A stretch of 64,000 nt of DNA from Bacteroidota bacterium (lineage in GTDB: Bacteria > Bacteroidota > Bacteroidia > Palsa-965): contig JACQAM010000020.1 in assembly GCA_016194975.1 (NCBI GenBank), forward strand, positions 62,001-126,000, written 5' to 3'. The position numbers and the translations under genes are program-made. Below are positions 36,610 to 52,559 of the stretch, piece after piece. A model generated the notes under the pieces. That model ran no database searches, was not told the origin of the DNA, and was given only the letters and a program-made list of their open reading frames with translations. Positions within the stretch are counted from its first letter, which is position 1. Each line of letters opens with the position of its first letter.

Positions 36610-37233
36610 GTGAATCAGATAAAAAAATATTTTCCGGACCTTTCTTCGAATCAATCGGCAAAATTTTCCATGCTCAAAGAGTTGTATGATTTCTGGAATG
36701 CGCAGATCAATGTCATTTCCAGGAAAGATATGGATGATTTTTATGTGCATCATGTTTTGCATTCGCTCTCGATTGCAAAAATTCTTTCCTTCAAACCCGG
36801 AACAGAAATTCTCGATATAGGAACAGGCGGTGGATTTCCCGGAATTCCGCTGGCGATATTATTCCCGGAAACAAAATTTCATCTCGTGGATTCCGTTGGT
36901 AAAAAAATAAAAGTGGTGAATGAAGTGGCGAATGCGTTACAACTCGAAAACATTTCTGCGCAACAGGTGCGTGCGGAAGAACTCGGTTCGAAATATGATT
37001 TTGTTGTTTCGCGTGCGGTGGCGCGTTGGACCGAATTGCAGCTATGGACAATGAAACTCATCAGGAAAAAACAAATGAATGCCATGCCCAACGGATGGTT
37101 CCTGCTCAAAGGCGGTGATCTTGCCGATGAATTCAGTCATGTGAAAAAGAGAAAGGAAGAATATACGATCAGCGATTTTTTTAAAGAAGATTATTTTAAA
37201 GCGAAAAAAGTTGTGTATGTACCGGCGGTGTGA
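36610..37233 (+). CDS. rsmG: 16S rRNA (guanine(527)-N(7))-methyltransferase
   Basis: RsmG methylates G527 of 16S rRNA using S-adenosylmethionine. The 207-residue length is normal. The SAM-binding region is ILDIGTGGGFPGIPLAILFP at about residues 60-79, followed by FHLVDSVGKKIKVVNEVAN and the catalytic-region DFVVSRAVARW. The start is GTG at 36610 (read as MNQIKKYFPDLS, the exact family N-terminus with its KYFP motif), and no ATG lies nearby in frame. It follows the sigma-factor gene by 37 bases on the same strand. Loss of the enzyme in other bacteria gives streptomycin resistance. Confidence 0.96.
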   Translation: MNQIKKYFPDLSSNQSAKFSMLKELYDFWNAQINVISRKDMDDFYVHHVLHSLSIAKILSFKPGTEILDIGTGGGFPGIPLAILFPETKFHLVDSVGKKIKVVNEVANALQLENISAQQVRAEELGSKYDFVVSRAVARWTELQLWTMKLIRKKQMNAMPNGWFLLKGGDLADEFSHVKKRKEEYTISDFFKEDYFKAKKVVYVPAV

Positions 37234-37312: not shown

Positions 37313-37381
37313 TCACAAATGGGCTTGCGAAAAAACGGAGAGCGAAATAAGAAGTGAGAAAAGAGTAAAATATTTTTTCAT
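37313..37381 (-). pseudogene. Truncated 5' leader of a T9SS cargo gene (signal peptide only)
   Basis: Six bases after the RCC1-type gene an ATG opens MKKYFTLFSLLISLSVFSQA and then HL and a TGA stop, 22 codons in all. The leader is the same as that of the array genes (compare MKKYFTLFAILTSLSVFSQA of the gene at 45846-47993). Its cargo is missing, so it is the 5' remnant of an array member, lying at the downstream end of the array. The preceding junction (stop, six bases, ATG) is also the array type. Confidence 0.7.
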
Positions 37382-37387
37382 GGGAAA

Positions 37388-38767
37388 TTATTTTTGAATA
37401 ATAATTTTTTGAGTGAACGATCCTTTTTCGTTTCTCGCATTCACAAAATAAATTCCATTTGCTTGATCAGATAAATCAATTTCCTGGTTTGAGTTTGAAA
37501 TTACGGTTTGATAAATTATTTCTCCGAGAATATTGGTGATGGAAATTTCTGTCGGAGAAAAAATATTTTTTGATTGAAAAACAAATTTTCCGGATGAGGG
37601 GTTTGGGAAAATAGATGTTGCAAGTGGATGTAAATTTTCGTACACGGAAACGGATGAACACAAATAAGTGATTTGAATTGGAATGTTATTATTTACATTG
37701 GAACCGTTTACAAGTTCACCCTCCACACCGTTTCCCCAACCCCAAACCGTTCCATCATTTTTCAAAGCAAGGGAATGATTAGAACTTGATCCTGTAGCGA
37801 TAGCTATTATGCCCGCCAGCCCTGTTACCTGTATAGGAAAATAACTATCAACGAAGAAGTAACCATTGCCAAGTTGTCCATAGCCATCGTATCCCCATGC
37901 CCAAACTGTGCCATCACTTTTCAAGGCAAGCGAATGTCCGAATCCAGCGGCTATCGCAATTATTCCAGTGAGAGCGGGCACCTGAATGGGAATATTTGAA
38001 TCAATGTTAGTGCTATCTCCTAATTGTCCTGTGCTGTTATAGCCCCATGCCCAAACTGTGCTGTCGCTTTTTAATGCGAGTGAATGACGCCATCCGGCAG
38101 AAATTGCTGTCACACCTGTGATCGCAACCGGTACAGGATAATAAGAATCATTATTATTTCCATTTCCTAATGCACCATCAGAATTTACTCCCCATGATAG
38201 TAATGTACTGTCACTTTTCAATGCGAGACCATGAAATCTGCCTGCTGCAATAGCGGTCACATTTGTAAGTGTGTTAGCTGTCGATGGAAAATTTAAATCA
38301 ACATTATTCCCGTTTCCAAGTTGGCCGAATGCGCCCCATCCCCAACACCACACTGTACCATTACTTTGTATGGCAAAGCAATGATTTGTACCTGCCGCAA
38401 TGCTGACAATCTGTGTGAGAGAAGCCACTTGCACGGGCGTGTTTGTGTCTGAATTATTTCCCAGTCCAAGTTGACCTTCTCCGTTATACCCCCATGTCCA
38501 TACCGTACTGTCATTTTTCAACGCAATGGAATGTCCTCCACCCACAGAGATGGCTTTCAAATGCGTCAGCCCGATTGCAGGATAAGGAATATTACTACTG
38601 CTGTTTGATCCATTCCCAAGTTCTCCTTCAGCATTGTATCCGAATGTCCACAAGACACTATCGGGGCAGATAAAAGCGGAACCGTTGCCGCCAACCGCCA
38701 ATTTCTGCGCGGGTGAGATCCGTGCGAGCGAAATAAAAATGGCGAAGAGCGTAAAATATTTTTTCAT
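37388..38767 (-). CDS. RCC1-repeat T9SS-secreted protein
   Basis: A 459-residue exported protein. Signal peptide MKKYFTLFAIFISLARISPA, then seven RCC1-type units (AEGELGNGSNSSSNIPYPAI, GEGQLGLGNNSDTNTPVQVA, FGQLGNGNNVDLNFP, DGALGNGNNNDSYYPVPVAI, TGQLGDSTNIDSNIPIQVPA, YGQLGNGYFFVDSYFPIQVT, EGELVNGSNVNNNIPIQITY), each about 50 residues with a GHSLALKSDGTVWAWGY spine, enough for one seven-bladed propeller. The C-terminus is the array-type sorting domain ending FTQKIIIQK. Function unknown; a surface scaffold is an inference. It is the last intact member of the leftward array, five bases after its upstream neighbour. Confidence 0.92.
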   Translation of the reverse strand: MKKYFTLFAIFISLARISPAQKLAVGGNGSAFICPDSVLWTFGYNAEGELGNGSNSSSNIPYPAIGLTHLKAISVGGGHSIALKNDSTVWTWGYNGEGQLGLGNNSDTNTPVQVASLTQIVSIAAGTNHCFAIQSNGTVWCWGWGAFGQLGNGNNVDLNFPSTANTLTNVTAIAAGRFHGLALKSDSTLLSWGVNSDGALGNGNNNDSYYPVPVAITGVTAISAGWRHSLALKSDSTVWAWGYNSTGQLGDSTNIDSNIPIQVPALTGIIAIAAGFGHSLALKSDGTVWAWGYDGYGQLGNGYFFVDSYFPIQVTGLAGIIAIATGSSSNHSLALKNDGTVWGWGNGVEGELVNGSNVNNNIPIQITYLCSSVSVYENLHPLATSIFPNPSSGKFVFQSKNIFSPTEISITNILGEIIYQTVISNSNQEIDLSDQANGIYFVNARNEKGSFTQKIIIQK

Positions 38768-38772
38768 AAGAA

Positions 38773-41274
38773 TTATTTTTGAATAATAATTTTTTGCGTT
38801 AATGATTCTTTCTCATTCTTCACCGTCACAAAATAAATTCCATTGGCTTGAGCAGATAAATCTATTTCCTGGGTTGGATTAAGAATTTCAGTTTGATAAA
38901 TTATTTCTCCGAGAATGTTGGTGATGGAAATTATTCCTGAGAAATTATTTTCGGGTTGAAAAGTAAATTTTCCTGGAGAAGGATTTGGAGAAATTACAAA
39001 TTCTAAATTTTCATCCTGCGTTTGAATTCCCGAGCAAAGACTGACATTGATTATTGAAGTATCTGAATTTGAACAACCATTCGCATCGGTGTAAGTATAA
39101 ACGATCGGAAAAATTCCTGCGCCGGCTGCTGATGGATTGAAAGTATTTCCAGTTACAGCAATACCCGAATAAATTCCTCCAGCGGGTGTGCCCGCACTTA
39201 ATGTTTGCGCACCCCAGTTCACGCACATGTTTGTGGTGACTTGATTATAAGAAACAGTTGGAAGAGGATTATTTGTAATTGTTACTGTTGCAGTTGTTGA
39301 ATCATTTAGAGAATCTATTACTGTAACTGAATAAGTTCCTGCGCAAAGCCCTGATGCAGTTTGGGCCGTTTGACCATCGCTCCACAAGTAAGAATATGGT
39401 GGAGTTCCATAAGATGCATTTACTGTTGCGGTTCCATTGCAAGGACCATTTCCGCAATTCATATTTGCAGGAATAATATTTGCAGTAAATAATGATTGTT
39501 TCCACACACCATTACTTTCAGTTCCTGCATAAATATCAGTTGCGCTTAATGCCAATGACCAAACATAAGTATTCGCCAAACCATTATTCATGGGAGCCCA
39601 ACTGTTTCCATTATTAGTTGACACAAACACTCCACCGCCCCAAGTACCAGCATAAAGATTTGTTCCGTCTGTCACTAAAGTCATAACATAAGTATTTGTC
39701 AAACCATTATTAACTGCTGTCCAACTAACACCATTATTCGTTGACATAACTACTCCACCATTTCCGTATGCCATTCCGGCAAAAATAGTTGTACCGATTA
39801 CAGCAAATGAAGTAACTGGATTGTTTTGTGAAACAAATACTTGTGTCCATGATCCTCCGTTGTTTGTTGAACGATACACGCCTTCACCCGTTCCATCTTT
39901 AGCGGCAAAAATATTTTGTCCAATTATTGCCAAGGCACTTATGGGAATATAAGACCCCAAACCATTATTGACAGCTGTCCAGCTATTGCCATTGTTGGTT
40001 GATAAAAATACGCCGCCAGCCCAAGTTCCGGCAAAAATATTTGATCCGCTTATAGCAAGTGCATGAACGTCAGTATACGTTAAGCCATTATTGATTGCTG
40101 TCCAATTGCCTCCATTGTTAGTGGATAAATATACGCCACCTCCAGTACCCGCAAAAAGATTTGTTCCATCCGAGGCAAATGAATAAATACCTCCATTTGT
40201 CATTCCGTTATTTGTCGCATTCCAACTTCCTCCATTGTTGCCAGATAAAAAAACACCAGCTGGACCATAATCGCCAGCAAAAATATTTGTTCCGTATACT
40301 GCCAATGCGGAAATCAACGTATTTGCCAAACCATTGTTAGAGGCCGTCCAATTGCTGCCAGTGTCACTTGATAAAAAAATGCCATCTCCAAATGTTCCCG
40401 CAAAAAGATTTGTTCCACAAGTAGCCAATGACAATATGGTCGTATCACTCAAACCATTATTGATGGAACTCCAATTGCTTCCGGTATCACTTGATAAAAA
40501 TATTCCGCCAGTCCAAGTGCCTGCAAAAATATTTGTTCCGATTGTTGTAAATGATGAGATATTTAAATCTGTCACACCATTATTGATCGCCGTCCACAAT
40601 CCTCCGTTGTTGGTAGATAAAAAGATGCCTCCACCTGCAGTTCCAGCAAAAATATTTGTTCCGCTTATCGTTAATGAATTAACAAACGTGAAGGTGAGAC
40701 CATTATTGACTGCTATCCAATTGTTTCCATTATTGGTTGACTTAAAAACACCATTCTGCGTTCCTGCAAAAATTGTTGTTCCGATTGTGTCCAATGATGT
40801 TACAGTAATATAACCAAGCCCATTGTTGACCGCAGTCCATGAGTTTCCATTGTTGGTGGATAAAAATACTCCGCCGCTATTTGTTCCTGCAAAAATATTT
40901 GTGTCGATAATCATCAATGAATTGATATCGTTATAGGTCAATCCAGTGTTGACGGGCGTCCAACTATTTCCAGTATCAGTTGATAAAAGAACTCCAGCTT
41001 GCGTTCCTGCGAAAGTATTTGTTCCGCTTACTGCCAATGCTTTTACCCTTGTGAAGTAGTTAAAAGCATTATTATTCACGCACGCCCAACTGCTTCCTGA
41101 ATCCCTTGACAAAAACACGCCACCATAATAAGTTCCCGCAAAAATATTTGTTCCGCTTGCTGCAATAGAACTGATCGTTCCGTCATATGGGCCATTGGAT
41201 TGTTGCCATTGTGCATTTAGAATGCTTGAGGAAAATAAAAATCCAGATAGGAAACTAAGTAGTTTTGCTTTCAT
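38773..41274 (-). CDS. YCF48/BNR-like tandem-repeat T9SS-secreted protein with SprB repeat
   Basis: An 833-residue exported protein. After the signal peptide (SSSILNAQ) come 14 units of about 41 residues, each with a phrase like TNIFAGTNSGGVFLSTNNGN and SWTAVNNGL, a photosynthesis-stability-factor/BNR-type beta-propeller pattern found in surface proteins. At about residues 600-670 is one SprB-type repeat (CNGTATVNASYGTPPYSYLW), the unit of the Flavobacterium gliding adhesin SprB, followed by an Ig-like domain and the array sorting domain (FVISPNPSPGKFTFQPENNF ... LTQKIIIQK). The last 230 residues are nearly those of the gene at 45846-47993, while the front parts are unrelated. Confidence 0.92.
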   Translation of the reverse strand: MKAKLLSFLSGFLFSSSILNAQWQQSNGPYDGTISSIAASGTNIFAGTYYGGVFLSRDSGSSWACVNNNAFNYFTRVKALAVSGTNTFAGTQAGVLLSTDTGNSWTPVNTGLTYNDINSLMIIDTNIFAGTNSGGVFLSTNNGNSWTAVNNGLGYITVTSLDTIGTTIFAGTQNGVFKSTNNGNNWIAVNNGLTFTFVNSLTISGTNIFAGTAGGGIFLSTNNGGLWTAINNGVTDLNISSFTTIGTNIFAGTWTGGIFLSSDTGSNWSSINNGLSDTTILSLATCGTNLFAGTFGDGIFLSSDTGSNWTASNNGLANTLISALAVYGTNIFAGDYGPAGVFLSGNNGGSWNATNNGMTNGGIYSFASDGTNLFAGTGGGVYLSTNNGGNWTAINNGLTYTDVHALAISGSNIFAGTWAGGVFLSTNNGNSWTAVNNGLGSYIPISALAIIGQNIFAAKDGTGEGVYRSTNNGGSWTQVFVSQNNPVTSFAVIGTTIFAGMAYGNGGVVMSTNNGVSWTAVNNGLTNTYVMTLVTDGTNLYAGTWGGGVFVSTNNGNSWAPMNNGLANTYVWSLALSATDIYAGTESNGVWKQSLFTANIIPANMNCGNGPCNGTATVNASYGTPPYSYLWSDGQTAQTASGLCAGTYSVTVIDSLNDSTTATVTITNNPLPTVSYNQVTTNMCVNWGAQTLSAGTPAGGIYSGIAVTGNTFNPSAAGAGIFPIVYTYTDANGCSNSDTSIINVSLCSGIQTQDENLEFVISPNPSPGKFTFQPENNFSGIISITNILGEIIYQTEILNPTQEIDLSAQANGIYFVTVKNEKESLTQKIIIQK

Positions 41275-41299
41275 TCGAATTTATTTTTGAATTACAGTT

Positions 41300-42715
41300 T
41301 CATTTTACAATGCACAATTTCTGTTTGATCGTTTCTCCATTGGGCCTTGTGAACCTAATGAAATAAATTTCCATCGCAACACCTGCTGAATAAAAATCAT
41401 TCTGGTAGTCTGATGTTTTGAAAATCAATCTTCCTCTTTCATCAAAAATTTCAAGAGCTGAATTAGGTTCAAGTCCGGAAATTTCAAATGAACCATCTCC
41501 AAATAAAACTGTAGGAATAAAAAATGCAGTTGGCGTTACAAGGATCGGCAAAACCGTTATAGTAATTGAATCTGAAAAGGAACAACCAGTTGGATTTGTT
41601 ACCGTAAGTGTGTAAGTGGTCGTTTGTGTTGGGCCGGCGATCGGATTCATGCAGGTGTCGCAACTCAATCCCGTGGAAGGATTCCATTGGAAAGTTCCGG
41701 AACCTGTCGCAGTGAGTTGAGTGGTGTCTCCTGAATAAATGAGTGTATCACCAGTTATGCTTATTGAAATTATAGGGAAAGAAAATTCCCATTGACTATT
41801 TGCAAATTGATTCGAACCGTTCAATCCTGTTGTAATGTATCCACTGCAATCGATTGAAAACCCAACCGCAGCTACACGTCCATTGCCTCCGAAATTTGCT
41901 CTTTGAGTCCAGTTATTTAAAACTGGATCATATTGCCAGAAATCACTACGGTTAATACCGGCGTAATCTCCACCACAACCCAAATAGCCCTTATTTCCGA
42001 GTGAAAATCCGGTTGCCAGAACTCTTGCGACACCGGGAAAATTTGTTTTTTGAGTCCACACATTGGTTGCTGGATCATATTGCCAAAAATCCTGCACAAA
42101 AAAACCGGGACCGTTTTGTCCTGTTCCGATATATCCTTTATCAAGGACGGAAAATCCACAAGCGGAAGAAATTCCTCCTCCACCGTAATTTGCTTTTTGA
42201 GTCCATGCATCCGTCAATGGATCATATTCCCAGAAATCACTTAAAGGAAAGATCATGCCTGAGCCCGTTCCGATGTACCCTTTATTACCAATAGAAAAAC
42301 CAACAGCCTGGCACCTGGCTATTCCTCCGAAGTATGCCTTAGGCGTCCATACATTGGTAATCGGATCATACTCCCAGAAATCCTGATAAAAAATAGCACT
42401 TGTCGGATCTTCTCCTGTTCCGATATAACCATTTCCACCAATAGAAAATCCAACAGCTTGAGTTCTTGCACCACCACCAAAATTTGCTTTTTGCATCCAT
42501 GTATCGCTATCAGAATCATATTCCCAGAAATCATTTGTTCCGGAATTCGTCATGTCCTGTCCCGTGCCGACATATCCTTTATTTCCTATGGAGAATCCGG
42601 TTGCGGAAGTTTTTCCGTTGCCTGTAAATGTTGCTTTTTGCACCCATGTTCCCTGAGCTGAGAGTATGATGGAAATAAAAAACAAAAAAAGAAGTGAGGC
42701 GGAATATTTACTCAT
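41300..42715 (-). CDS. Kelch-type propeller T9SS-secreted protein
   Basis: A 471-residue protein with a signal peptide (IILSAQ) and kelch-like units of about 55 residues: GFSIGNKGYVGTG followed by NDFWEYDSDSDTWMQKANFG, repeated six times. A PKD/Ig-like linker with a CDTCMNPIAGPTQTTTYTLT stretch follows. The C-terminus (SFEISGLEPNSALEIFDERG ... IYFIRFTRPNGETIKQKLCIVK) is a diverged sorting domain unlike the other array members. It is paralogous to the gene at 44467-45702. Adhesive or scaffold role is inferred from the propeller type. Gaps to the neighbours are 25 and 6 bases. Confidence 0.88.
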   Translation of the reverse strand: MSKYSASLLFLFFISIILSAQGTWVQKATFTGNGKTSATGFSIGNKGYVGTGQDMTNSGTNDFWEYDSDSDTWMQKANFGGGARTQAVGFSIGGNGYIGTGEDPTSAIFYQDFWEYDPITNVWTPKAYFGGIARCQAVGFSIGNKGYIGTGSGMIFPLSDFWEYDPLTDAWTQKANYGGGGISSACGFSVLDKGYIGTGQNGPGFFVQDFWQYDPATNVWTQKTNFPGVARVLATGFSLGNKGYLGCGGDYAGINRSDFWQYDPVLNNWTQRANFGGNGRVAAVGFSIDCSGYITTGLNGSNQFANSQWEFSFPIISISITGDTLIYSGDTTQLTATGSGTFQWNPSTGLSCDTCMNPIAGPTQTTTYTLTVTNPTGCSFSDSITITVLPILVTPTAFFIPTVLFGDGSFEISGLEPNSALEIFDERGRLIFKTSDYQNDFYSAGVAMEIYFIRFTRPNGETIKQKLCIVK

Positions 42716-42721
42716 TGCAAT

Positions 42722-44431
42722 TTATTTTTGAATGATTATTTTCTGTGTGAACGATTCTACTTTCGCTTTCACATTCACAAAATAAATTCCATCGGGTTGA
42801 GAACTTAAGTCAATTTCCTGGTTCGAATTATTTATTTCAGTTTGATAAATTATTTCTCCGAGGATGTTGGTGATGCAAATTATTCCGGAAAAATTATTTT
42901 CGAATTGTAAAGAAAATTTTCCTGAAGAAGGATTTGGAGAAATATGAAAAGAAAACTCCGGTATTGTTTCTATTCCGAGCGTAGTGGTATCGCTACGGAG
43001 TTTGGTAAGAAAAAAATCTGCGCTATTGGGAAAAACGCATGAATTAATGAGAGTATTATTTCCGAATGAGATGGTAGCCCCGCCAAAATAACCGGTAACG
43101 AAACATTCGTTCGCGGTGCGTGCCGCAATTGCAGCCGGGTATTCGTTATTAGAAGAAACAGCGCTCATTCCGTAAATAAAATTTCCGGAGCTGTCATACT
43201 TTACGACAAAAAGATCGCTGCTGCCGGGATTGGTATTCGGTAAAACTGTAGAACCGAATGTAATATTATACCCTTCGTATTCTCCGGTTGTGTAAACTGC
43301 GCCAGTTAAGTCAACACTTATTCCGGATCCGAATTCATCACTTCCGGCGCAAGGAGCCGAAGTACCGATACCGGTTCGAACCCACAATGGATTTCCCGCA
43401 GAATCAATTTTACAAAAGAAAAGGTCAAAAGTGCCGGAGCAGGGTGCAGAATTCAGAGCGATTAAACTTCCTAACCGGAGCGTATCGCCGGAAAATTCTC
43501 CTGTAATGAAAACATTTCCCATTGCATCTGAAGCGATGGCAATACTTGCATCATTGGAGTAATTATCGCTTGAAAAATTCTTTACCAATAATAAATTTCC
43601 ATTGGTGTTGTATTTCGCTACAAAAATATCTCCGCCGAATGTTGAAGAATAGTTAGATATAGAAATAGTATCGAAAGAAACGGATGAACTGTAAAATGCT
43701 CCGGTTATCCAGATGAAGTTGTTCGCATCTGTACAGATAGAAATAGCTTCGTCAATATTGGTTCCACCTGCGGATCTTGCCCATAAAGAATTTCCAGTTT
43801 GACTGAACCCTGCAATTAAGCAATCGAGTGACGATCCGGTAGTGTCGCGATTAATCAGCGTGTCTGCTCCAATAATGAGTTTTCTGCTGCTGAAAAATCC
43901 CGTAATAAAAATATTTCCGGTTCGTGTGCAGGTTATTCTATTGGCCTGATCGTTTCCATCCCCTCCAAAATGTTTTGCCCATATTTCATTTCCGGAATTA
44001 TCGAATTTCGCGATGAATAATTCCGCGCCGGAACCCTGCTGGCGGATCATGGTATCGGCGCCAAGTATTAATGTGTCAGAATTGAAATACCCGGATATAA
44101 AACTATTTCCTGATGCATCAATTGCAATTCCCTGTCCTGATGCGAAACCTTTTCTTGCTCCTTTTCCCCAGAGGATGGCACCTGAAGAATCATATTTCGC
44201 AATGAAAACTCCGGCATCGGGCAGAATAGTACTGTTCATGATTACCGAATCGCTGCTAAGCGTTCCAGTAACATAAGTGTTCCCGATCGAATCTGAGACA
44301 ACAGCAGATCCCATGCTACCGTTGTAATCAATTCCGTTGAATGTGTTTGCCCACTGCCATACCGGAGATTGTGATCGCATGGATAATGTGAACAGAAGAA
44401 CTGTACCCACGAGAAGAATTGTTTTTTTCAT
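42722..44431 (-). CDS. SBBP-repeat T9SS-secreted protein (third of three)
   Basis: A 569-residue protein with a signal peptide (LFTLSMRSQ) followed by SBBP-type units of about 50 residues (GNTYVTGTLSSDS, GNSFISGYFNSDTLILGADT, GNIFITGFFSSRKLIIGADT, GNVFITGEFSGDTLRLGSLI), each ending in a FIAKYDSSGAILWGKGARKG-like half. It ends in the array-type sorting domain (SFHISPNPSSGKFSLQFENN ... FTQKIIIQK). Its leader differs from the MKKYFTLF type, so only the 3' cassette is shared. A beta-propeller in the extracellular space is likely. Function unknown. Confidence 0.9.
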   Translation of the reverse strand: MKKTILLVGTVLLFTLSMRSQSPVWQWANTFNGIDYNGSMGSAVVSDSIGNTYVTGTLSSDSVIMNSTILPDAGVFIAKYDSSGAILWGKGARKGFASGQGIAIDASGNSFISGYFNSDTLILGADTMIRQQGSGAELFIAKFDNSGNEIWAKHFGGDGNDQANRITCTRTGNIFITGFFSSRKLIIGADTLINRDTTGSSLDCLIAGFSQTGNSLWARSAGGTNIDEAISICTDANNFIWITGAFYSSSVSFDTISISNYSSTFGGDIFVAKYNTNGNLLLVKNFSSDNYSNDASIAIASDAMGNVFITGEFSGDTLRLGSLIALNSAPCSGTFDLFFCKIDSAGNPLWVRTGIGTSAPCAGSDEFGSGISVDLTGAVYTTGEYEGYNITFGSTVLPNTNPGSSDLFVVKYDSSGNFIYGMSAVSSNNEYPAAIAARTANECFVTGYFGGATISFGNNTLINSCVFPNSADFFLTKLRSDTTTLGIETIPEFSFHISPNPSSGKFSLQFENNFSGIICITNILGEIIYQTEINNSNQEIDLSSQPDGIYFVNVKAKVESFTQKIIIQK

Positions 44432-44466
44432 GACTTGTTTTTTTCAGAAAATTTATTCGTGTTCGA

Positions 44467-45702
44467 TCAATGTGCAATAATTAATTTTTGTGTTGTGAAT
44501 TCACTTTCATTTTCCATTGAATTTAATCTTGCCAGATAAATTCCGTTACTCAGAAATGTAAGGTCAGCATCTTCTGAACAGGATTCAATGTTTGTTTCAA
44601 AAAGAAGGTCTCCGTTCATGTTGTAAATACGTAGTGCAGATCTTCTGATCTTCGTTTTAATAAAAATGTGTCCGTCAGAAACTGATGGGTAAATGCTTGC
44701 TTCTGAAATTGCATTTTGTTCTTCAACGCTTACATCGAGTGGTATATATTCCCAGAAGTCCCGGTATGCAGTGCTCGGATTAAAACCGGTTCCTACGTAT
44801 CCATTTCCATTGATCGTAAAAGCAACCGGGTAAACGCGCGCCACTCCTCCGAAATTTGTTCTTTGATTCCAGACATCAGTCGCAGGATCATATTCGCGCA
44901 AATCCTGCGAGGGGCCGGGGAAACCTGTTGCAACATATCCTCTATTATTAATTGAAAATCCAACAGCTGCGTAAATAGGACCACCGGCATAATTTGCTTT
45001 TGCAGTCCAGGTATCAGTGACCTGATTATATTCTTTAAAGTCACTGAACGTTGTACTCCATGTAGTACCAGTTCCAACGTAAGCTTTTGTTCCGATTGTA
45101 AAACAAATTGCACCCGCTCTTCCTGCTCCTGGAAAACTTGCCTTTTGATTCCATGGAAGCCCTCCAATGGTATCTGCTGTAGGATCATATTCCCAGAGAT
45201 CATTGTAAAATGAATTAAGGCCGGCATTTGTTCCCATTGAAACATATCCTTTGTTTCCGATTGAAAAACCAACGCCGAGTCTGCGTCCTGCTCCGATCAA
45301 ACTTGCAACAGGAGACCAGGTATTCGTAAGTTGGTTCCATGACCAAAAATCCTGCAATGCATTTCCTGCATTAGTTGTTCCGGTTCCTACATATCCTTTT
45401 GTTCCGATAGAAAATCCGACGGCATCAAATCTTCCGCCTCCTCCATAGTTCGCTTTTTGCATCCATGTATCTGATACCGGGTCGTACTCCCAGAAATCAA
45501 CATAAGCAAATCCTCCATCAGGCGATCCTGTTCCAATGTATCCTTTTGTTCCGATGGAAAAACCAACTGCGGTGTATCTTCCCGTGCCGCCGTAAGTCGC
45601 TTTTTGTATCCAGGTGTTCTGGGACTGCAATTCGTTCTTAAATCCAAAACAAGAAATGCACAAAGGAAGGAGGATGGCGAATGAATATTTTTTTGTTTTC
45701 AT
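44467..45702 (-). CDS. Kelch-type propeller T9SS-secreted protein (second)
   Basis: A 411-residue exported protein related to the gene at 41300-42715. It has a long N-terminal segment with signal-like LLPLCISCF and kelch units (GFSIGTKGYIGTG, DFWEYDPVSDTWMQKANYG). The C-terminal 75 residues (SIYPSVSDGHIFIKTKIRRS ... FTTQKLIIAH) are a diverged sorting domain with an extra Cys. One oddity: the leader begins MKTKKYSFAILLPLCISCFG, with Cys residues possibly in a lipobox. A truncated leader remnant lies directly upstream (26 bases). Confidence 0.88.
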   Translation of the reverse strand: MKTKKYSFAILLPLCISCFGFKNELQSQNTWIQKATYGGTGRYTAVGFSIGTKGYIGTGSPDGGFAYVDFWEYDPVSDTWMQKANYGGGGRFDAVGFSIGTKGYVGTGTTNAGNALQDFWSWNQLTNTWSPVASLIGAGRRLGVGFSIGNKGYVSMGTNAGLNSFYNDLWEYDPTADTIGGLPWNQKASFPGAGRAGAICFTIGTKAYVGTGTTWSTTFSDFKEYNQVTDTWTAKANYAGGPIYAAVGFSINNRGYVATGFPGPSQDLREYDPATDVWNQRTNFGGVARVYPVAFTINGNGYVGTGFNPSTAYRDFWEYIPLDVSVEEQNAISEASIYPSVSDGHIFIKTKIRRSALRIYNMNGDLLFETNIESCSEDADLTFLSNGIYLARLNSMENESEFTTQKLIIAH

Positions 45703-45728
45703 TGTATTTTTTTTAATTGATTATTTTT

Positions 45729-45839
45729 TTAATTCAAAACAATTTGTTCTCCCGCACTTCTCGCCCACGCCCAATTTGGCGATTGAGAAAAAGCGGAGAG
45801 CGAAATGAAAATTGCAAAGAGGGTAAAATATTTTTTCAT
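45729..45839 (-). pseudogene. Truncated 5' end of an SBBP-type T9SS gene
   Basis: Six bases after the neighbouring SBBP gene stop an ATG opens MKKYFTLFAIFISLSAFSQS, then PNWAWARSAG and EQIVLN with a TAA stop: 36 codons. The intact neighbours begin SVFSQAPNWAWAKSAGG, so the first 30 codons match and the rest of the propeller and the sorting domain are lost. The stop is reached six codons after the homology ends. It therefore marks a deleted or recombined array member. Confidence 0.75.
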
Positions 45840-45845
45840 GACAAT

Positions 45846-47993
45846 TTATTTTTGAATGATTATTTTTTGCGTGAATGATTCCTTTTCGTTTTTCACATTC
45901 ACAAAATAAATTCCATCTGGCTGAGAACTCAAGTCAATATCAGTTGTGAGTTGCCGGTTGTCAGTTGCACTGCTGTAAATTATTTCTCCGAGAACGTTGG
46001 TGATGGAAATTTCTTTCGGTGAAAAATTGTTCTCGGATTGTACCGTAAATTTTCCCGAAGAAGGATTTGGAGAAATTACAAATTCTGAATTTTCATCCTG
46101 CGTTTGAATACCTGAACAAAGACTTACAATGACGAAAGAAGTGTCTGAATTTGTGCAGCCGTTAGAAGAAGTATAAGTGTAGATGATCTGAAAAGTTCCA
46201 GGGCCTGCAACGGAAGGATTAAATGTATTTCCCGAAACAGCAGTTCCGGAATAAATTCCTCCTGCGGGTATGCCTGCACTCAATGTTTGCGCGCCCCAGT
46301 TCACACACATGTTTGTTGTGATTTGATTATAGGAAACAGTAGGCAAAGGATTATTTGTAATTGCTATAGAAGCCGTTGTAGAATCATTTACCGCATCGAC
46401 AATAATTACAGAATAAGTTCCTGCGCAAAGTCCGGTGGCGGTTTGTGTTGTTTGTCCGTCGCTCCATAAATAAGTGTAAGGTGGAGCTCCATAAGCAACA
46501 TTTGCATTTACAGACCCATTGCAAGGTCCGTTTCCGCAGTCCATATTGACGGAAATAATATTTGCAGTTAAATAAGAATTTATTTTTGATGTGAAAATAT
46601 CATTACCACTCCAAGCATTCAGGGTGTCATTGTAAAAAATCAGTTGACCAATAAAATTTCCAGTAGTGTATACACTCCCACTAGTTCCAACATTGATTGA
46701 GATGCCTTCTCCCGATCCTCCTGATCCTCCCTCACCTTTTGCCCAAACTAAATTTCCTGAAGAATTATATTTTGCAACGAAGATATCTGAACCCAATGGC
46801 CCTTTAGTTAAGGAGTCACTTCCAAAAAAAATTACGGGGCTACTAAAAGATCCTGTGATAAAAACATTTGCACATGCATCGGTGCTGATGCCATAACCGA
46901 TATCCTCAAAATTTCCATACGCACTTTTAGACCAAAGTACATTACCCGAAACATCATATTTTGTAATAAAAACGTCATCACATCCTGAAAAACAATTTGC
47001 ACTATTGGTTAGAGAAGTATTGCCAAAATTAATTGTCCCGCTACCAAAAAGTCCAGTTACAAAGACATTTCCACTTGCATCGGTACTGATGCTGTTACCT
47101 CCATTAACTGTGTTTCCTCCTGCATTATTCGCCCAAATCACAGTTCCTGACGGAGAATATTTGGTAACAAAAAAATCATGGTTGCCGGGATTGGTTAAAG
47201 TTATATTTCCAAACGTGATTGTGGAACTTCCAAAAAAACCTGTAACAAATATATTTCCACTTGCATCAGTGCTAATGCTTGCCCCTGCATCAGAGGAAAT
47301 GCCACCAGCACTTGTAGCCCATATTACATTTCCGAAGGCATCATATCCTGCTACAAAAAAATCATATGTATTACCGGTAATATCAGCATTCGATAACGTG
47401 ATTGCGCCAAAGGCAATAGTTGAGCTATAAAAACTGCCAGTAATAAAAATATTTCCGTTTGAATCCGTGCTAATACTGTACGACAAATCCGAACTAATTC
47501 CTCCCGCACTTTTCGCCCATATTACATTTCCGGAAGCATCATATTTTGCAATAAAAACATCTGAACTGTTAGGTCCATTTGTATTTGTTAATGTGTCATT
47601 GTCAAAAATGATAATTGGGCTCCAAAATTGACCAGTCAATAATACATTTCCATTCAAATCAATTGCTATACACAAACTTTCGTCCCAATCTGTACCGCCT
47701 ATACTTTTTACCCACAGGATATTTCCTGAAGAATCATATTTAGCAATAAAAATATCGCACGTGTTACCTGTATTATCAACATTTGTCAATGAGTCGTTAT
47801 CTAAATAGATCTTTGCAGAGAAAAAATATCCGGTAACGAATACGTTTCCATTTAAATCTGAGCAGATGCTTTTTCCATAATCATCTCTTCCGTTCCATGA
47901 CCCTCCCGCACTTTTCGCCCACGCCCAATTCGGGGCTTGAGAAAAAACGGAGAGTGAAGTAAGAATCGCGAAGAGTGTAAAATATTTTTTCAT
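45846..47993 (-). CDS. SBBP-repeat T9SS-secreted protein with SprB repeat (second of three)
   Basis: A 715-residue exported protein. Leader MKKYFTLFAILTSLSVFSQA is followed by SBBP-type propeller units to about residue 475 (GNVFVTGYFFSAKIYLDNDS, DIFIAKYDSSGNILWVKSIG, GGNSISTDASGNVFVTGLFG), then a SprB repeat (CNGSVNANVAYGAPPYTYLW), an Ig-like domain, and the array sorting domain. A stretch of the sorting domain, YSSATDNRQLTTDIDLSS, replaces the usual QTEINNSNQEIDLSS and corresponds to DNA made of GTTGTGAGTTGCCGGTTGTC-like words, as if a dispersed intergenic repeat had been inserted in frame. It ends FTQKIIIQK. Confidence 0.92.
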   Translation of the reverse strand: MKKYFTLFAILTSLSVFSQAPNWAWAKSAGGSWNGRDDYGKSICSDLNGNVFVTGYFFSAKIYLDNDSLTNVDNTGNTCDIFIAKYDSSGNILWVKSIGGTDWDESLCIAIDLNGNVLLTGQFWSPIIIFDNDTLTNTNGPNSSDVFIAKYDASGNVIWAKSAGGISSDLSYSISTDSNGNIFITGSFYSSTIAFGAITLSNADITGNTYDFFVAGYDAFGNVIWATSAGGISSDAGASISTDASGNIFVTGFFGSSTITFGNITLTNPGNHDFFVTKYSPSGTVIWANNAGGNTVNGGNSISTDASGNVFVTGLFGSGTINFGNTSLTNSANCFSGCDDVFITKYDVSGNVLWSKSAYGNFEDIGYGISTDACANVFITGSFSSPVIFFGSDSLTKGPLGSDIFVAKYNSSGNLVWAKGEGGSGGSGEGISINVGTSGSVYTTGNFIGQLIFYNDTLNAWSGNDIFTSKINSYLTANIISVNMDCGNGPCNGSVNANVAYGAPPYTYLWSDGQTTQTATGLCAGTYSVIIVDAVNDSTTASIAITNNPLPTVSYNQITTNMCVNWGAQTLSAGIPAGGIYSGTAVSGNTFNPSVAGPGTFQIIYTYTSSNGCTNSDTSFVIVSLCSGIQTQDENSEFVISPNPSSGKFTVQSENNFSPKEISITNVLGEIIYSSATDNRQLTTDIDLSSQPDGIYFVNVKNEKESFTQKIIIQK

Positions 47994-47999
47994 GATAAT

Positions 48000-49664
48000 T
48001 TATTTTTGAATGATTATTTTTTGCGTGAATGATTCCTTTTCGTTTTTCACATTCACAAAATAAATTCCATCCGGCTCGGAACTCAAGTCGATCTCTGAAT
48101 TGGAATTTTGAATTTGTGTTTGATAGATTATTTCTCCCAGGATGTTGGTGATGGAAATAGTTCCGGAGAAATTATTTTCAGCTTTGATGGTGAAGATTCC
48201 GGAGGAAGGGTTGGGAGCATAATTAAGATTTTCTTTTGAGAAGTTGATTTGATTAATCCCTACCCCGAGATTATCAATTTTGGAAATAAACATATCGTGA
48301 GATGATCCAGTATTATCAATATTAGTCAGCGTTGTTGATCCAAAAGCTAAAGTCGGACTATCGTACCACCCCGCTAAATAAATATTTTCAGATTGATCCT
48401 TTGCTGCTCCCGTAACAAAATCTGCCATACTCCCGCCGACGGATTTCGCCCAAATAACATTTCCAACGGTGTCGTATTTAGCCAGAAATATATCTGAAAC
48501 TCCTCCACTATATACAAGAGTATCGAATCCAAAAATCAAATTTGAACTCGAAAAGACACCTCCTGCGAAAGCGTTTCCCACCGAGTCAGTTGTCAGTGCG
48601 TAAGCCATTTCTGTCATAATACCTCCAGCACTTCTTGCCCAAACAAGATTTCCAGTGGCTGAATATTTTGCTATAAACATATCATTGATATTCATGGATG
48701 AATTAATCAAAGTATCGAGCCCCAGAATTAAAGTATCTGATGAAAAATACCCAGCTATAAAAACATTACCTTTTTGATCTGCCTGACCACAAGTTGAAAC
48801 ATCGTTATCATAATTCTGTCCTCCGGCACTCCGCGCCCAAATGACGTTTCCAGCCCCGTCAAACTTGACCAAAAAAATATCGTGATTTCCTGTGGTATTA
48901 AGTGTTATTGAACCGAAAGTAATTGAAGACGTAAAACTTCCAGTCAAGTATACATATCCAGAATCATCAGTAAAAATGGCGGAGGAATTATCATCTGAAC
49001 CACCTCCTGCGGTAAGAGACCACGAGGGGATACCATTAGTGCTATATTTTTCTATGAAAATATCATTTGAACCCGCATAACTGTTGAACAAAGTGTCGCT
49101 ATCAAATATTATGTACGCCCCGGAGTAATTCCCAGTCACGAAAACATTACCAGAAGCGTCAGCACAAACCGAACTTGGATAAGTGTATGGATCGCCCCCA
49201 GAATTTGTCGCCCATTGTGGATTTCCATTACTATCATACTTTACAACGAACATGTCGGCATTATTTGGAAAGGGATTAGTCAACGTTGTCGACCCAAAGG
49301 AAATAGTTGAGCTCGAGAAAAATCCTGCCACGACAATATTGCCAGAAGGATCTCCGCTGACTGATTGTGCACCGTTGGCATTACTTCCAGAAGCACTTTG
49401 TGCCCATATAACATTTCCATTAACGTCATATTTAACCAGAAACATTTGACCATTCCATGTGTTTGTCAAAGTCGTTGAGCCAAAAACTATTGAAGAGCTG
49501 ATGAAATTGCCCGCAACGTAAATATTTCCTGTTCCGTCAGCATAAATAGAATTGGCTCCATCGAAAGAATTTCCTCCCGCACTTTTCGCCCACGCCCAAT
49601 TCGGCGCTTGCGAAAAAACGGAGAGGGAAATAAAAATCGCGAAGAGTGTGAGTTTTGTTTTCAT
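48000..49664 (-). CDS. SBBP-repeat T9SS-secreted protein (first of three)
   Basis: A 554-residue exported protein. Leader MKTKLTLFAIFISLSVFSQA, then SBBP units (NIYVAGNFISSSIVFGSTTL, NIVVAGFFSSSTISFGSTTL, NVFVTGNYSGAYIIFDSDTL, YVYLTGSFTSSITFGSITLN), with the second half MFLVKYDVNGNVIWAQSASG repeating, and a final array-type sorting domain (YAPNPSSGIFTIKAENNFSG ... FTQKIIIQK). Its ATG overlaps the stop of the outer-membrane protein gene by four bases (ATGA), showing translational coupling with the start of the array. Confidence 0.92.
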   Translation of the reverse strand: MKTKLTLFAIFISLSVFSQAPNWAWAKSAGGNSFDGANSIYADGTGNIYVAGNFISSSIVFGSTTLTNTWNGQMFLVKYDVNGNVIWAQSASGSNANGAQSVSGDPSGNIVVAGFFSSSTISFGSTTLTNPFPNNADMFVVKYDSNGNPQWATNSGGDPYTYPSSVCADASGNVFVTGNYSGAYIIFDSDTLFNSYAGSNDIFIEKYSTNGIPSWSLTAGGGSDDNSSAIFTDDSGYVYLTGSFTSSITFGSITLNTTGNHDIFLVKFDGAGNVIWARSAGGQNYDNDVSTCGQADQKGNVFIAGYFSSDTLILGLDTLINSSMNINDMFIAKYSATGNLVWARSAGGIMTEMAYALTTDSVGNAFAGGVFSSSNLIFGFDTLVYSGGVSDIFLAKYDTVGNVIWAKSVGGSMADFVTGAAKDQSENIYLAGWYDSPTLAFGSTTLTNIDNTGSSHDMFISKIDNLGVGINQINFSKENLNYAPNPSSGIFTIKAENNFSGTISITNILGEIIYQTQIQNSNSEIDLSSEPDGIYFVNVKNEKESFTQKIIIQK

Positions 49665-50404
49665 TGAAAATATATTTTATAGCCGAGATTAAAAGATGTC
49701 ACCACTGTTTCATTGAAAAAAATAAAATCTGCGATGCCGATCGAACGTTCGGAAGAAGAATTCCCAATACCGATATTTCTAACATTGCCAGTCATAGTGT
49801 CCACTTCTGAAATTTTTCCGGCAAATCCGATTTCCAGAGGCACATCAAGAAATATTCTCCCGATTCCGAGTCTATGATCAAGCCCGGCGGAAAAAAGTAA
49901 CCCCAGTCCCTTTGTTTCATGTGCTGTTGAAACCGTACCGCTTCCATAAGTACTTGTTCCGGTAATATCAATAGCAAAAACATCGTGGTAACTGAAATAA
50001 CCAACTCCTAACGAAAGAAAAGCTCCGCCTTTGCTGTCGCAATTTTTACCAAGAACATAATAAGAAGAAACAACGCCGAAATTCATAATACTGCTTCCCT
50101 TATAAGAATAAAATTCTTGCCCTGCCACATTTCCTGCCGAGTCCTTTGCATCACCTACGGAGGAATAGCTACGCCCTGCAAGCAGTATTGACCTCACTCC
50201 TATACTGAATTTGTTTCCCAGAAAATAATTGGCATCAATACAACCACCCCATCCCGGACCTTGATCTGTCGTGCGGCCGTGAGAAATTCCAAGACCGACT
50301 GAGAATCGGCTTAGCTGGATATCATCTGAGTTGCTGACTTGCGCGAAAGTTGCCGCGTGAATCAGTATCATATATAGAATCAGAATAGATATTTTGCTTT
50401 TCAT
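49661..50404 (-). CDS. Outer-membrane beta-barrel protein
   Basis: A 247-residue protein with a signal peptide (LIHAATFAQ) and alternating hydrophobic strands of a small outer-membrane barrel (LSRFSVGLGISHGRTTDQG, GCIDANYFLGNKFSIGVRSI, GLLFSAGLDHRLGIGRIFLD, FNETVVTSFNLGYKIYFQ; last residue aromatic). It is the second gene of the array operon, six bases after the CFI-box gene and overlapping the first SBBP gene. A role in anchoring or exporting the following cargo proteins is an inference from position only. Confidence 0.75.
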   Translation of the reverse strand: MKSKISILILYMILIHAATFAQVSNSDDIQLSRFSVGLGISHGRTTDQGPGWGGCIDANYFLGNKFSIGVRSILLAGRSYSSVGDAKDSAGNVAGQEFYSYKGSSIMNFGVVSSYYVLGKNCDSKGGAFLSLGVGYFSYHDVFAIDITGTSTYGSGTVSTAHETKGLGLLFSAGLDHRLGIGRIFLDVPLEIGFAGKISEVDTMTGNVRNIGIGNSSSERSIGIADFIFFNETVVTSFNLGYKIYFQ

Positions 50405-50410
50405 GTGAAA

Positions 50411-51286
50411 TTATTTATTTGAAAATTTAAGAACAGAATCTTTCCTCCTTAATCTCTCCACCAATTTATCCAGCATCCACCGGCACGCATTATTCACACG
50501 CACGTTATTTCTGAACATACGCACGAAGACTGGTGAAGTGGAGTAATAGATCGCAATGAAAAGTCTTCCAAGAAAATAGGGTTTCAGTTTCTCATCGCGG
50601 AATTTCCGCAAGACCAAAACTTCCGGTGCGTCGTAACTTTTGTAAACCATCGTAGCGATGTAACAGGCGTTATTAATCGCCCGCGCGGTCAATAGATATG
50701 CAATAAAAGAGAGAGGTATTAAAATGGAGAATCCAATGAAGATTCCCTTGCAAATTCGCAAAGTTGATTCCACTTCTTCTTTCCCTTTGTAATTCTCAGA
50801 GACCGAGTGCCGCGCTTTTATTTTTTTTGCTATAATAAATGCAATTAGAGCGAGGATAATTCCGAGCGGAAAAAGAAAGAATGATAAGATGATGGCAACT
50901 ATAGCAAGAGTATTGACCTTCCTCGCGGCGTCATAATCATCCTCGCCGGGATCTCCTGAAGATGCAGTATGTGTAGTTGTAGTTGCGTGATGCGGAACTG
51001 TATCGCGAGAAATCGTTTGCGGAAGAACAAGCGTTGAAACTACATTTTGAATAGAGCGAGGCGGGAAGGATAATGGCTTGTCAATAATTGTCGAGTGAAA
51101 AACATAGGTGTTATCCGGAGTAGGCAAAATATTTTTTACTCCAATACAATTAATAGGGATAGGAAGAAGCATGTTAGGTTCAACAACTGAAGATCTTTTG
51201 TTTTCGCCTTCTGAAATATGCTGAGCTTGATTACAGGCTAATCCTAGCACTGTGATTAAAATGAATAAAACGATTTTTGATTTCAT
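50411..51286 (-). CDS. CFI-box-CTERM lipoprotein with membrane helices
   Basis: A 291-residue protein. Lipobox LGLAC suggests lipidation at Cys18. A soluble N-terminal part is followed by two membrane segments (LAIVAIILSFFLFPLGIILA and ICKGIFIGFSILIPLSFIAY) and a C-terminal CFI-box: ACYIATMVYKSYDAPEVLVL, RKFRDEKLKPYFLGRLFIAI, YYSTSPVFVRMF. This box is recognised as a C-terminal domain tied to variable surface proteins, but its biochemical role is not known to me. I chose ATG 51286 (MKSKIVLF), since the upstream residues from 51319 are not protein-like. First gene of the 14-kb array. Confidence 0.75.
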   Translation of the reverse strand: MKSKIVLFILITVLGLACNQAQHISEGENKRSSVVEPNMLLPIPINCIGVKNILPTPDNTYVFHSTIIDKPLSFPPRSIQNVVSTLVLPQTISRDTVPHHATTTTHTASSGDPGEDDYDAARKVNTLAIVAIILSFFLFPLGIILALIAFIIAKKIKARHSVSENYKGKEEVESTLRICKGIFIGFSILIPLSFIAYLLTARAINNACYIATMVYKSYDAPEVLVLRKFRDEKLKPYFLGRLFIAIYYSTSPVFVRMFRNNVRVNNACRWMLDKLVERLRRKDSVLKFSNK

Positions 51287-51532: not shown

Positions 51533-52186
51533 TCACATATCGGAAAATTTGTACGTCTTGTAATGCATCACGCGCAAACCGAGGTTGAAGGAACCGTGTG
51601 AAAAATCTTCTCCGCCTTCTTTCATGAACGGAGTAAGTCCGTAACGATAATACGCTTCCCAGTAAATCGTCCACGCTTCATGATTCTTCGACGATCCTCC
51701 CCACACACTGTACATGCCAAGTCCCGTTTTCGCCGCGAGCTCATCGTGTTTAGAAAAATTATTTTCCGAAGGTGAAAGTTGCAGCGCATGAACGTAATCA
51801 AAACCGAGATCGTAATTGATCATGCCTCCGAAGCAGTAACCGTTTTTTTTGCGATTGTCAATCGAAAACAGGTCGAGCTTCATGAGTATTCCTGCACCCA
51901 CACCATTCCATTTATAATTCACGGTTCCCTCTTCGTTGCTCAGCGGAAAAGAACTGCTGTGCTGTACAAAAAATATTTCCGGATAAAAAATTTCATTCCA
52001 CTCGTGGCAAATTCCGGCCGTGAAAGCAGAACCGTTTTTTATGTCGTGCGTTGACCATTGCTGAACCGTGTTGTCGAATGGACTATACGATGCGCAAATT
52101 CCGATGTTGTGTTTCGTGCGTACATAATGTTGCGCGCTTATGCCTGTGGCAAAAAGCAGGGCAGGGAGGAGGGCTATACGTTTCAT
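51533..52186 (-). CDS. Outer-membrane beta-barrel-like secreted protein
   Basis: A 217-residue protein, unrecognised. Signal peptide MKRIALLPALLFATGISA, followed by amphipathic strands with aromatic residues (GSAFTAGICHEWNEIFYPEI, GVGAGILMKLDLFS, GYCFGGMINYDLGFDYVHAL, EAWTIYWEAYYRYGLTPF, GSFNLGLRVMHYKTYKFSDM), suggesting a small barrel or a lipocalin-like secreted fold. I chose ATG 52186 because the seven residues encoded upstream precede the signal peptide. It is a single gene between a 246-base gap and a 373-base gap. Confidence 0.6.
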   Translation of the reverse strand: MKRIALLPALLFATGISAQHYVRTKHNIGICASYSPFDNTVQQWSTHDIKNGSAFTAGICHEWNEIFYPEIFFVQHSSSFPLSNEEGTVNYKWNGVGAGILMKLDLFSIDNRKKNGYCFGGMINYDLGFDYVHALQLSPSENNFSKHDELAAKTGLGMYSVWGGSSKNHEAWTIYWEAYYRYGLTPFMKEGGEDFSHGSFNLGLRVMHYKTYKFSDM

Positions 52187-52559
52187 GGCTGGTGGTTTTG
52201 AATTCATAATGGCGTTTTGTAAAAAAGATACAGGGTAATTTGCTAATGGTAATTCAGTAAACGGAATGGTGTACAGTTTACAAACGCTGGAAATAAAAAA
52301 ATAATGTGTGGAAAATTGGAATACGATAAATGCAGTAGGAGTTATTGGTTACTTGTTCTTGAGATGTTGGGATTTGAAGCGCAACTGCAGAGCTTCAAAA
52401 TTTTTGTGTTCCTGCCCGTGCGCAGCAGAGCACGCGCGTGGTCAGGGCTACGCGTAATTCCCGCTGTGCAATAAAATTTTTCCGGTGACTTCCCCTGAAC
52501 TTTTTTCCTGGTATTTCACTTCCTCAAATTCATCAGCACATTTACACATTCACCCATTC
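52187..52559. other. Non-coding gap with hairpin and dispersed repeat
   Basis: Between the barrel-like gene and the MsbA-type gene stop there is no convincing gene. It contains a hairpin (TTTGAAGC at 52373-52380 with GCTTCAAA at 52392-52399), a GC-rich patch at about 52405-52470 that stands out from the AT-rich surroundings, and the inverted copy of the 19-base dispersed word at 52532-52550. The GC-rich patch could be a fragment of foreign or repetitive DNA. Confidence 0.5.
52532..52550 (-). repeat. Dispersed 19-bp word, inverted copy
   Basis: ATCAGCACATTTACACATT is the exact reverse complement of 36571-36589. Confidence 0.6.

Follow-up and report, generated by a model that had tools for sequence, protein, structure and literature searches.

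How do neighbouring genes whose middles encode unrelated proteins come to carry nearly the same end? The question is posed by a tandem array within a stretch of 64,000 nucleotides from a Bacteroidota bacterium (assembly GCA_016194975.1, contig JACQAM010000020.1, positions 62,001 to 126,000), which is G000:C20:62001-126000 in our numbering of a 4.10 Mb genome in 28 contigs and is called the window here; coordinates without a contig prefix are window positions. Eleven co-oriented units, all on the minus strand, occupy 37313-51286 and meet at junctions that measure between -4 and 35 bases, as a first-pass annotation of the sequence had described. Seven of them are genes for cargo of the type IX secretion system (T9SS), and five of the seven (three SBBP, one YCF48-type and one RCC1 gene) share a C-terminal domain (CTD) that is absent from both kelch genes. 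We estimate at roughly 0.7 the probability that this export tail has undergone local gene conversion, in other words concerted evolution, in a lineage-specific tandem array.

The shared tail and its genomic neighbourhood

Pfam and NCBIfam back the RCC1, sortilin/YCF48-like, kelch, SBBP and CFI-box labels given to the units. The five genes with the shared CTD, all on the minus strand, are SBBP1 (48000..49664; PF06739, PF18962), an SBBP beta-propeller cargo with the leader MKTKLTLFAIFISLSVFSQA; SBBP2 (45846..47993; Pfam), a second SBBP propeller; SBBP3 (42722..44431), an SBBP-like propeller with a leader of its own (NF047494 at 113 bits, below the cut-off); the gene of a YCF48/sortilin-type propeller cargo of 833 amino acids (38773..41274; PF15902 at 65 bits, PF18962 at 46.7 bits); and an RCC1-repeat cargo gene (37388..38767; PF25390/PF00415, PF18962), which has the shared leader. 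In each of these the PF18962/TIGR04183 domain scores above the curated cut-offs of Pfam and NCBIfam, with 44.6-57.3 bits. Genes for the T9SS translocon (SprA, TIGR04189, 2618 bits) and sortase (PorU, NF033707, 1338 bits) are present in the genome, and the array products are predicted to be T9SS type A surface or secreted proteins.

The genome lists at least 150 Por_Secre_tail (PF18962) CTD genes, and among the 138 of those listed that we analysed the mean identity of a pair of CTDs is 27% and the 99th percentile 43%. To our knowledge, the CTDs of T9SS cargo are usually too diverse for any sequence motif to explain their recognition. The five array CTDs, whatever body they follow, are 70-79% identical in amino acids and 72-82% in DNA (the SBBP1 and SBBP3 CTDs are respectively 75-79% and 72-79% identical in amino acids to the other four), and the array tails end in KIIIQK. 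The recurring leader and the stop-spacer-ATG junction that had been noted together with this sorting domain are likewise present. In a direct-repeat analysis the unit of CTD, stop codon, spacer and leader emerged as families D1 and D2, which reach across gene boundaries, with a further family (D10) for the leader by itself. Taking as reference the junction module that runs from the SBBP1 CTD through its stop codon and 6 nt to the SBBP2 leader (47903..48230, minus strand), a DNA search of the same genome returned six array copies of at least 128 bits and nothing elsewhere above 71.6 bits; the repeated unit is locus-specific. No near-identical array was found in searches of single genomes or in a GTDB search from which the array's own genome had been left out.

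Similarity also reaches upstream of the CTD in one pair of genes: the YCF48-type gene and SBBP2 have in common the 160 amino acids directly before it (76% identity), of which 300 nt (family D11; 38938-39237 and 46020-46319) are 81% identical, so that some tracts extend beyond the CTD into the gene. The bodies are a different matter. Those of SBBP1-3 are homologous at 31-40% identity, whereas the RCC1, YCF48 and SBBP bodies are mutually unrelated by BLASTP.

Is the tail a property of the protein or of the place? A second array in the same genome (C7:316208-320907; L049, 10209-14908), and ordered SBBP, RCC1, SBBP, likewise has a common tail of its own, whose copies are 64-82% identical. The body of its RCC1 protein (C7:319035) is 46.6% identical to that of the window RCC1 protein and the two tails are 50% identical, yet the tail of the C7 RCC1 protein is 82% identical to that of the adjoining SBBP protein. 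In the CTD tree the five tails from C20, the contig of the window, form one clade (98/97), and the approximately unbiased (AU) test rejects joining both RCC1 tails (p 3e-9) as well as joining all SBBP tails (p 2e-5). The body of the C7 protein SBBPb is sister to that of a dispersed gene, C24_11808 (99/96), yet their tails are only 21% identical. Similarly, C24_32432 and C7_161323 have bodies 61% and tails 33% identical, and the tail of C24_32432 is 60% identical to that of its own neighbour. Among dispersed genes, those whose bodies are at least 40% identical have a median tail identity of 25%; for tandem neighbours without body homology the median is 60% (n = 7, p 0.004). CTD similarity is thus set by the array and not by the protein. 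The SBBP body tree was built from a smaller set, a tree with distant rows being uninformative, and since one clade of the three C20 SBBP bodies was not rejected (AU p 0.18), that tree alone is no proof of interleaving; the pairing of C7 SBBPb with C24_11808 does prove it.

Synonymous sites and high-identity tracts

Could selection on the protein have produced the same result? If the products all needed the same CTD, for instance to meet an anchor or shuttle partner, convergence or purifying selection would keep the tails alike with no exchange of DNA. CTDs are functional signals, and at some motif positions, GIYF among them, codons coincide even between pairs drawn at random, because of which a simple expected codon match overstated the case; we therefore used a column-specific null, which takes for every CTD column the codon frequencies found elsewhere in the genome. 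Against this null the C20 CTDs still share synonymous codons in excess (0.69 versus 0.51, z 6.7), as do the C7 array (z 7.9) and a tandem pair on contig C4 (21971/24771, z 7.9), whereas of four cross-array pairs only one reaches significance. Within-array similarity exceeds between-array similarity in both C20 and C7, synonymous sites included. The similarity also takes in the noncoding spacer and the following gene's leader, and the other CTDs of the genome work at about 27% mutual identity, all of which makes selection on the protein alone a most improbable explanation.

The codon test also bears on ordinary tandem duplication, in which propeller bodies would diverge fast and tails slowly. 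The homology of the SBBP1-3 bodies fits such a history, and relatives contain many tandem cargo pairs that are simple duplicates. However, the RCC1, YCF48 and SBBP genes have the tail in common without related bodies, and where the amino acid agrees, the SBBP bodies of the array use the same codon about as often as chance predicts (0.38-0.46 versus 0.41-0.43 expected). Synonymous sites are saturated in the bodies and not in the tails, which differing protein rates cannot explain, and we give duplication of this kind hardly any credence.

The clearest traces of exchange lie outside the window. In the C4 pair just mentioned (C4:21971-27479, L067), the bodies are 49-51% identical in amino acids, and DNA identity rises from about 55% to about 97% over a tract of some 220 bases that runs from the start of the CTD to about the stop codon; it is a textbook conversion tract. 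A pair in the congener G006 (L190, C6) alternates from about 55-60% to 96-100%, back to 60-68%, and is then 100% identical as far as the stop codon, and a pair in G007, a member of another genus, is about 94-100% identical across most of the CTD (L216). Sharp-edged tracts of 94-100% identity, confined to the CTD region, interrupt genes that are otherwise 50-75% identical, in this genome and in two relatives, and Fisher tests of codon sharing in tail versus body gave p values of 2e-16 (C4), 6.5e-7 and 5.9e-5 (G006), and 1.6e-4 and 1.3e-5 (G007). As a pattern in the sequence, conversion of tails is visible in these three genomes. A further G007 pair (L223) has raised identity, of 76-90%, over the CTD.

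Within the window array the signal is less sharp. SBBP1 and SBBP2 agree at 22 consecutive polymorphic sites in their end regions (permutation p about 0.0003), but this is the only fresh-looking run in the array, and most pairs in the GENECONV-like analysis are not significant. The DNA identity of the array CTDs, only 72-82%, means that exchange there is old or partial, and over the last 24 codons codon sharing is raised between arrays too. Homogenized tails are lacking altogether in the genus member G003, and further cargo genes paired in tandem, here and in relatives, are not homogenized. Some even have the reverse pattern (C24:43028-49707, C23:280970-284673, L192 and L162), with bodies 51-59% identical and CTDs at background, as if their tails had been replaced or were diverging faster. 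Apart from the run at the SBBP1/SBBP2 end, these observations weigh against gene conversion as the explanation of the window array.

Because exchange in the window array is old or partial, its main rival is a single burst in which one CTD, together with a leader, was fused once to several bodies, the tails having diverged independently ever since with no repeated conversion. The C20 CTDs do form an unresolved star and their DNA identity is fairly even, and fusion with a recent common origin was proposed by the authors who described the KLIKK proteases discussed below (PMC4404884). What such a burst accommodates poorly is the patchy tract at the SBBP1/SBBP2 end; moreover, the unmistakable tail-only tracts of the C4, G006 and G007 pairs tell us that conversion operates in this lineage, and the homologous SBBP bodies are so much older than their tails that the tails must have been replaced anyway. 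We regard the single burst as unlikely, although it deserves serious consideration.

If local gene conversion is the correct explanation, how might it work? The CTD DNA, a few spacer bases and the leader of the next gene together make up a repeated junction module, through which neighbouring co-oriented genes could recombine by ectopic gene conversion. Such recombination would homogenize the CTDs and, in part, the leaders within an array, and the propeller bodies, being uncopied, would stay old and diverse. A body could also acquire a new tail in this way, and whole genes may be gained or lost in frame through unequal crossing-over between modules. We infer this recombination pathway and its benefit, which might be to diversify the propellers on display. 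The earlier proposal that shared 5' and 3' ends around unrelated middles arose by homologous recombination gains support from the conflict between bodies and tails, from synonymous sharing and from the tracts.

Other units of the array and the history of the locus

The remaining units, also on the minus strand, are two genes at the head of the array, two kelch genes and two remnants. KelchB (44467..45702; Pfam/NCBIfam) has a borderline Por_Secre_tail match and a tail unrelated to the shared CTD, and kelchA (41300..42715) lacks the shared CTD and has a weak CHU_C-like tail (21.1 bits, cut-off 27). Between SBBP2 and kelchB lies the leader and start of a lost SBBP gene (MKKYFTLFAIFISLSAFSQSPNWAWARSAGEQIVLN followed by a stop codon; 45729..45839), 86% identical over 92 nt to the start of SBBP2 and a member of repeat family D10; after the RCC1 gene, at the outer edge of the array, a second leader-only sequence (MKKYFTLFSLLISLSVFSQAHL followed by a stop codon; 37313..37381) was recognized from its sequence. 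Both are footprints of lost genes. The array is probably an operon, its genes presumably co-transcribed; sites resembling promoters and terminators occur only at chance level. An AlphaFold model of SBBP1 made without an alignment was poor (mean predicted local distance difference test score, pLDDT, 53) and was not used.

The first array gene encodes a CFI-box-CTERM lipoprotein of 291 amino acids with a lipobox-like LACN (50411..51286; NF041770 at 74.9 bits, cut-off 40), and the second a 247-amino-acid exported protein (49661..50404) that overlaps SBBP1 by 4 bases. The latter has no match in Pfam or NCBIfam, so the label of barrel once attached to it is only a guess. Do these two form a shared part for anchoring or export, as had been suggested? 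Three CFI-box genes score above the cut-off in the genome, on C20, C7 and C8, and one lies upstream of each array, in C7 about 4 kb away. The C8 gene, however, is followed by a small exported putative barrel without sequence similarity to that of the window and has no cargo array, and the related genus member G007 has two CFI-box genes with no cargo nearby. No CFI-box gene was found in the congeners G001, G003, G005 and G006, yet G003 and G006 are rich in CTD cargos. A dedicated anchoring or export unit finds no support in these data, and we rejected it on these grounds.

When did the array arrive? It is flanked by rsmG (36610..37233, plus strand; 62-65% amino acid identity in the nearest congeners, with synteny in L137, L138 and L141) and by omp224, the gene of a 224-amino-acid protein (51533..52207, minus strand; 46-50%). 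In the congeners G001 and G004 these two anchors adjoin each other across an array-free gap of about 120-250 bases, in the order lptF-tgt-glycosyltransferase-like-sigma-rsmG-omp224-ABC transporter-carB (names assigned by similarity to window genes and by eye, not curated), and in G003 and G007 the ABC transporter gene directly adjoins rsmG. From the array-free site it follows that the 14-kb block was probably added in this lineage; less simply, it may have been lost in several others. No tRNA, integrase, dedicated recombinase or att-like repeat was found at the block as a mark of insertion, nor any flanking repeats of at least 10 nt. Between rsmG and the ABC transporter gene (L139, L140) lie other genes unrelated to the array, about 5 kb of them in G006 and probably some in G005 too, so the site may be insertion-tolerant. 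The turnover of array genes that had been supposed is supported in part, by the two leader-only remnants and by the absence of the block from the same site in two congeners.

Common ends around differing middles, together with those remnants and the lineage-specific presence of the array, would also suit a programmed variable-surface system, with propellers swapped by recombination from one strain or cell to another. All open reading frames of the array are accounted for, though, with no integrase or transposase among the matches and no recombinase, inverted repeats at the flanks, inverted cassette or silent-cassette arrangement seen in the array, and we consider a programmed system very unlikely.

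Elsewhere in the window, a 1752-amino-acid exported protein (24073-29331) has an end, DDVCVIGI, that resembles the ends of PP2C/SpoIIE-type proteins encoded elsewhere in the genome.

Wider meaning and known systems

What would follow if tails are exchanged between neighbours? Phylogenies and classifications of cargo that are based on tails would mislead, recently converted tails could date the activity of an array, and new surface proteins of Bacteroidota may arise in tandem cargo loci. More broadly, and here we are doubtful, though the idea is a possible one, tandem T9SS cargo arrays might be assembly loci for surface proteins, with the CTD, spacer and leader acting as a general Bacteroidota exchange cassette by which homologous recombination inserts, removes or re-tails any propeller; the sequence of a tail would then record genomic neighbourhood, not protein family. 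In our literature search, which covered few subscription journals, gene conversion of CTDs among tandem T9SS cargo genes was nowhere described.

Although no such locus had been known to the first-pass annotation, the KLIKK protease loci of Tannerella forsythia have the same basic design (PMC4404884) and are the closest precedent. There, too, clustered T9SS cargo genes combine similar CTDs and signal peptides with different bodies, in that case catalytic domains; the CTDs are virtually identical, which the authors described as unusual and left unexplained (PMC4404884), and CTD identities are generally very low, as noted with the structure of a KLIKK CTD (PMC11285876). The KLIKK proteins are proteases that end in KLIKK and share a 30-residue motif, whereas those of the array are propellers whose shared tails end in KIIIQK and have less identical CTDs; unlike the KLIKK case, the genome studied here has two separate arrays, each with its own tail. 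As far as we saw, the KLIKK paper neither mentions recombination nor analyses synonymous sites (PMC4404884). Local gene conversion, in which tails follow genomic neighbourhood, offers a testable answer to why clustered cargos have virtually identical CTDs.

Recombination is already known to act on T9SS surface proteins in Porphyromonas gingivalis, where homologous recombination diversifies the gingipain and haemagglutinin loci by rearranging domains and exchanging alleles (PMC5266723). The window array is similar in that respect, but P. gingivalis exchanges adhesin domains, and alleles between strains, whereas in the array it would be the export tail and junction that are exchanged among tandem neighbours. 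Finally, copies more alike within an array than across arrays, with patchy conversion tracts, recall the concerted evolution of ribosomal DNA and of tandem protein arrays, from which the window array would differ in that only the ends of its genes are homogenized, around middles that are not homologous.

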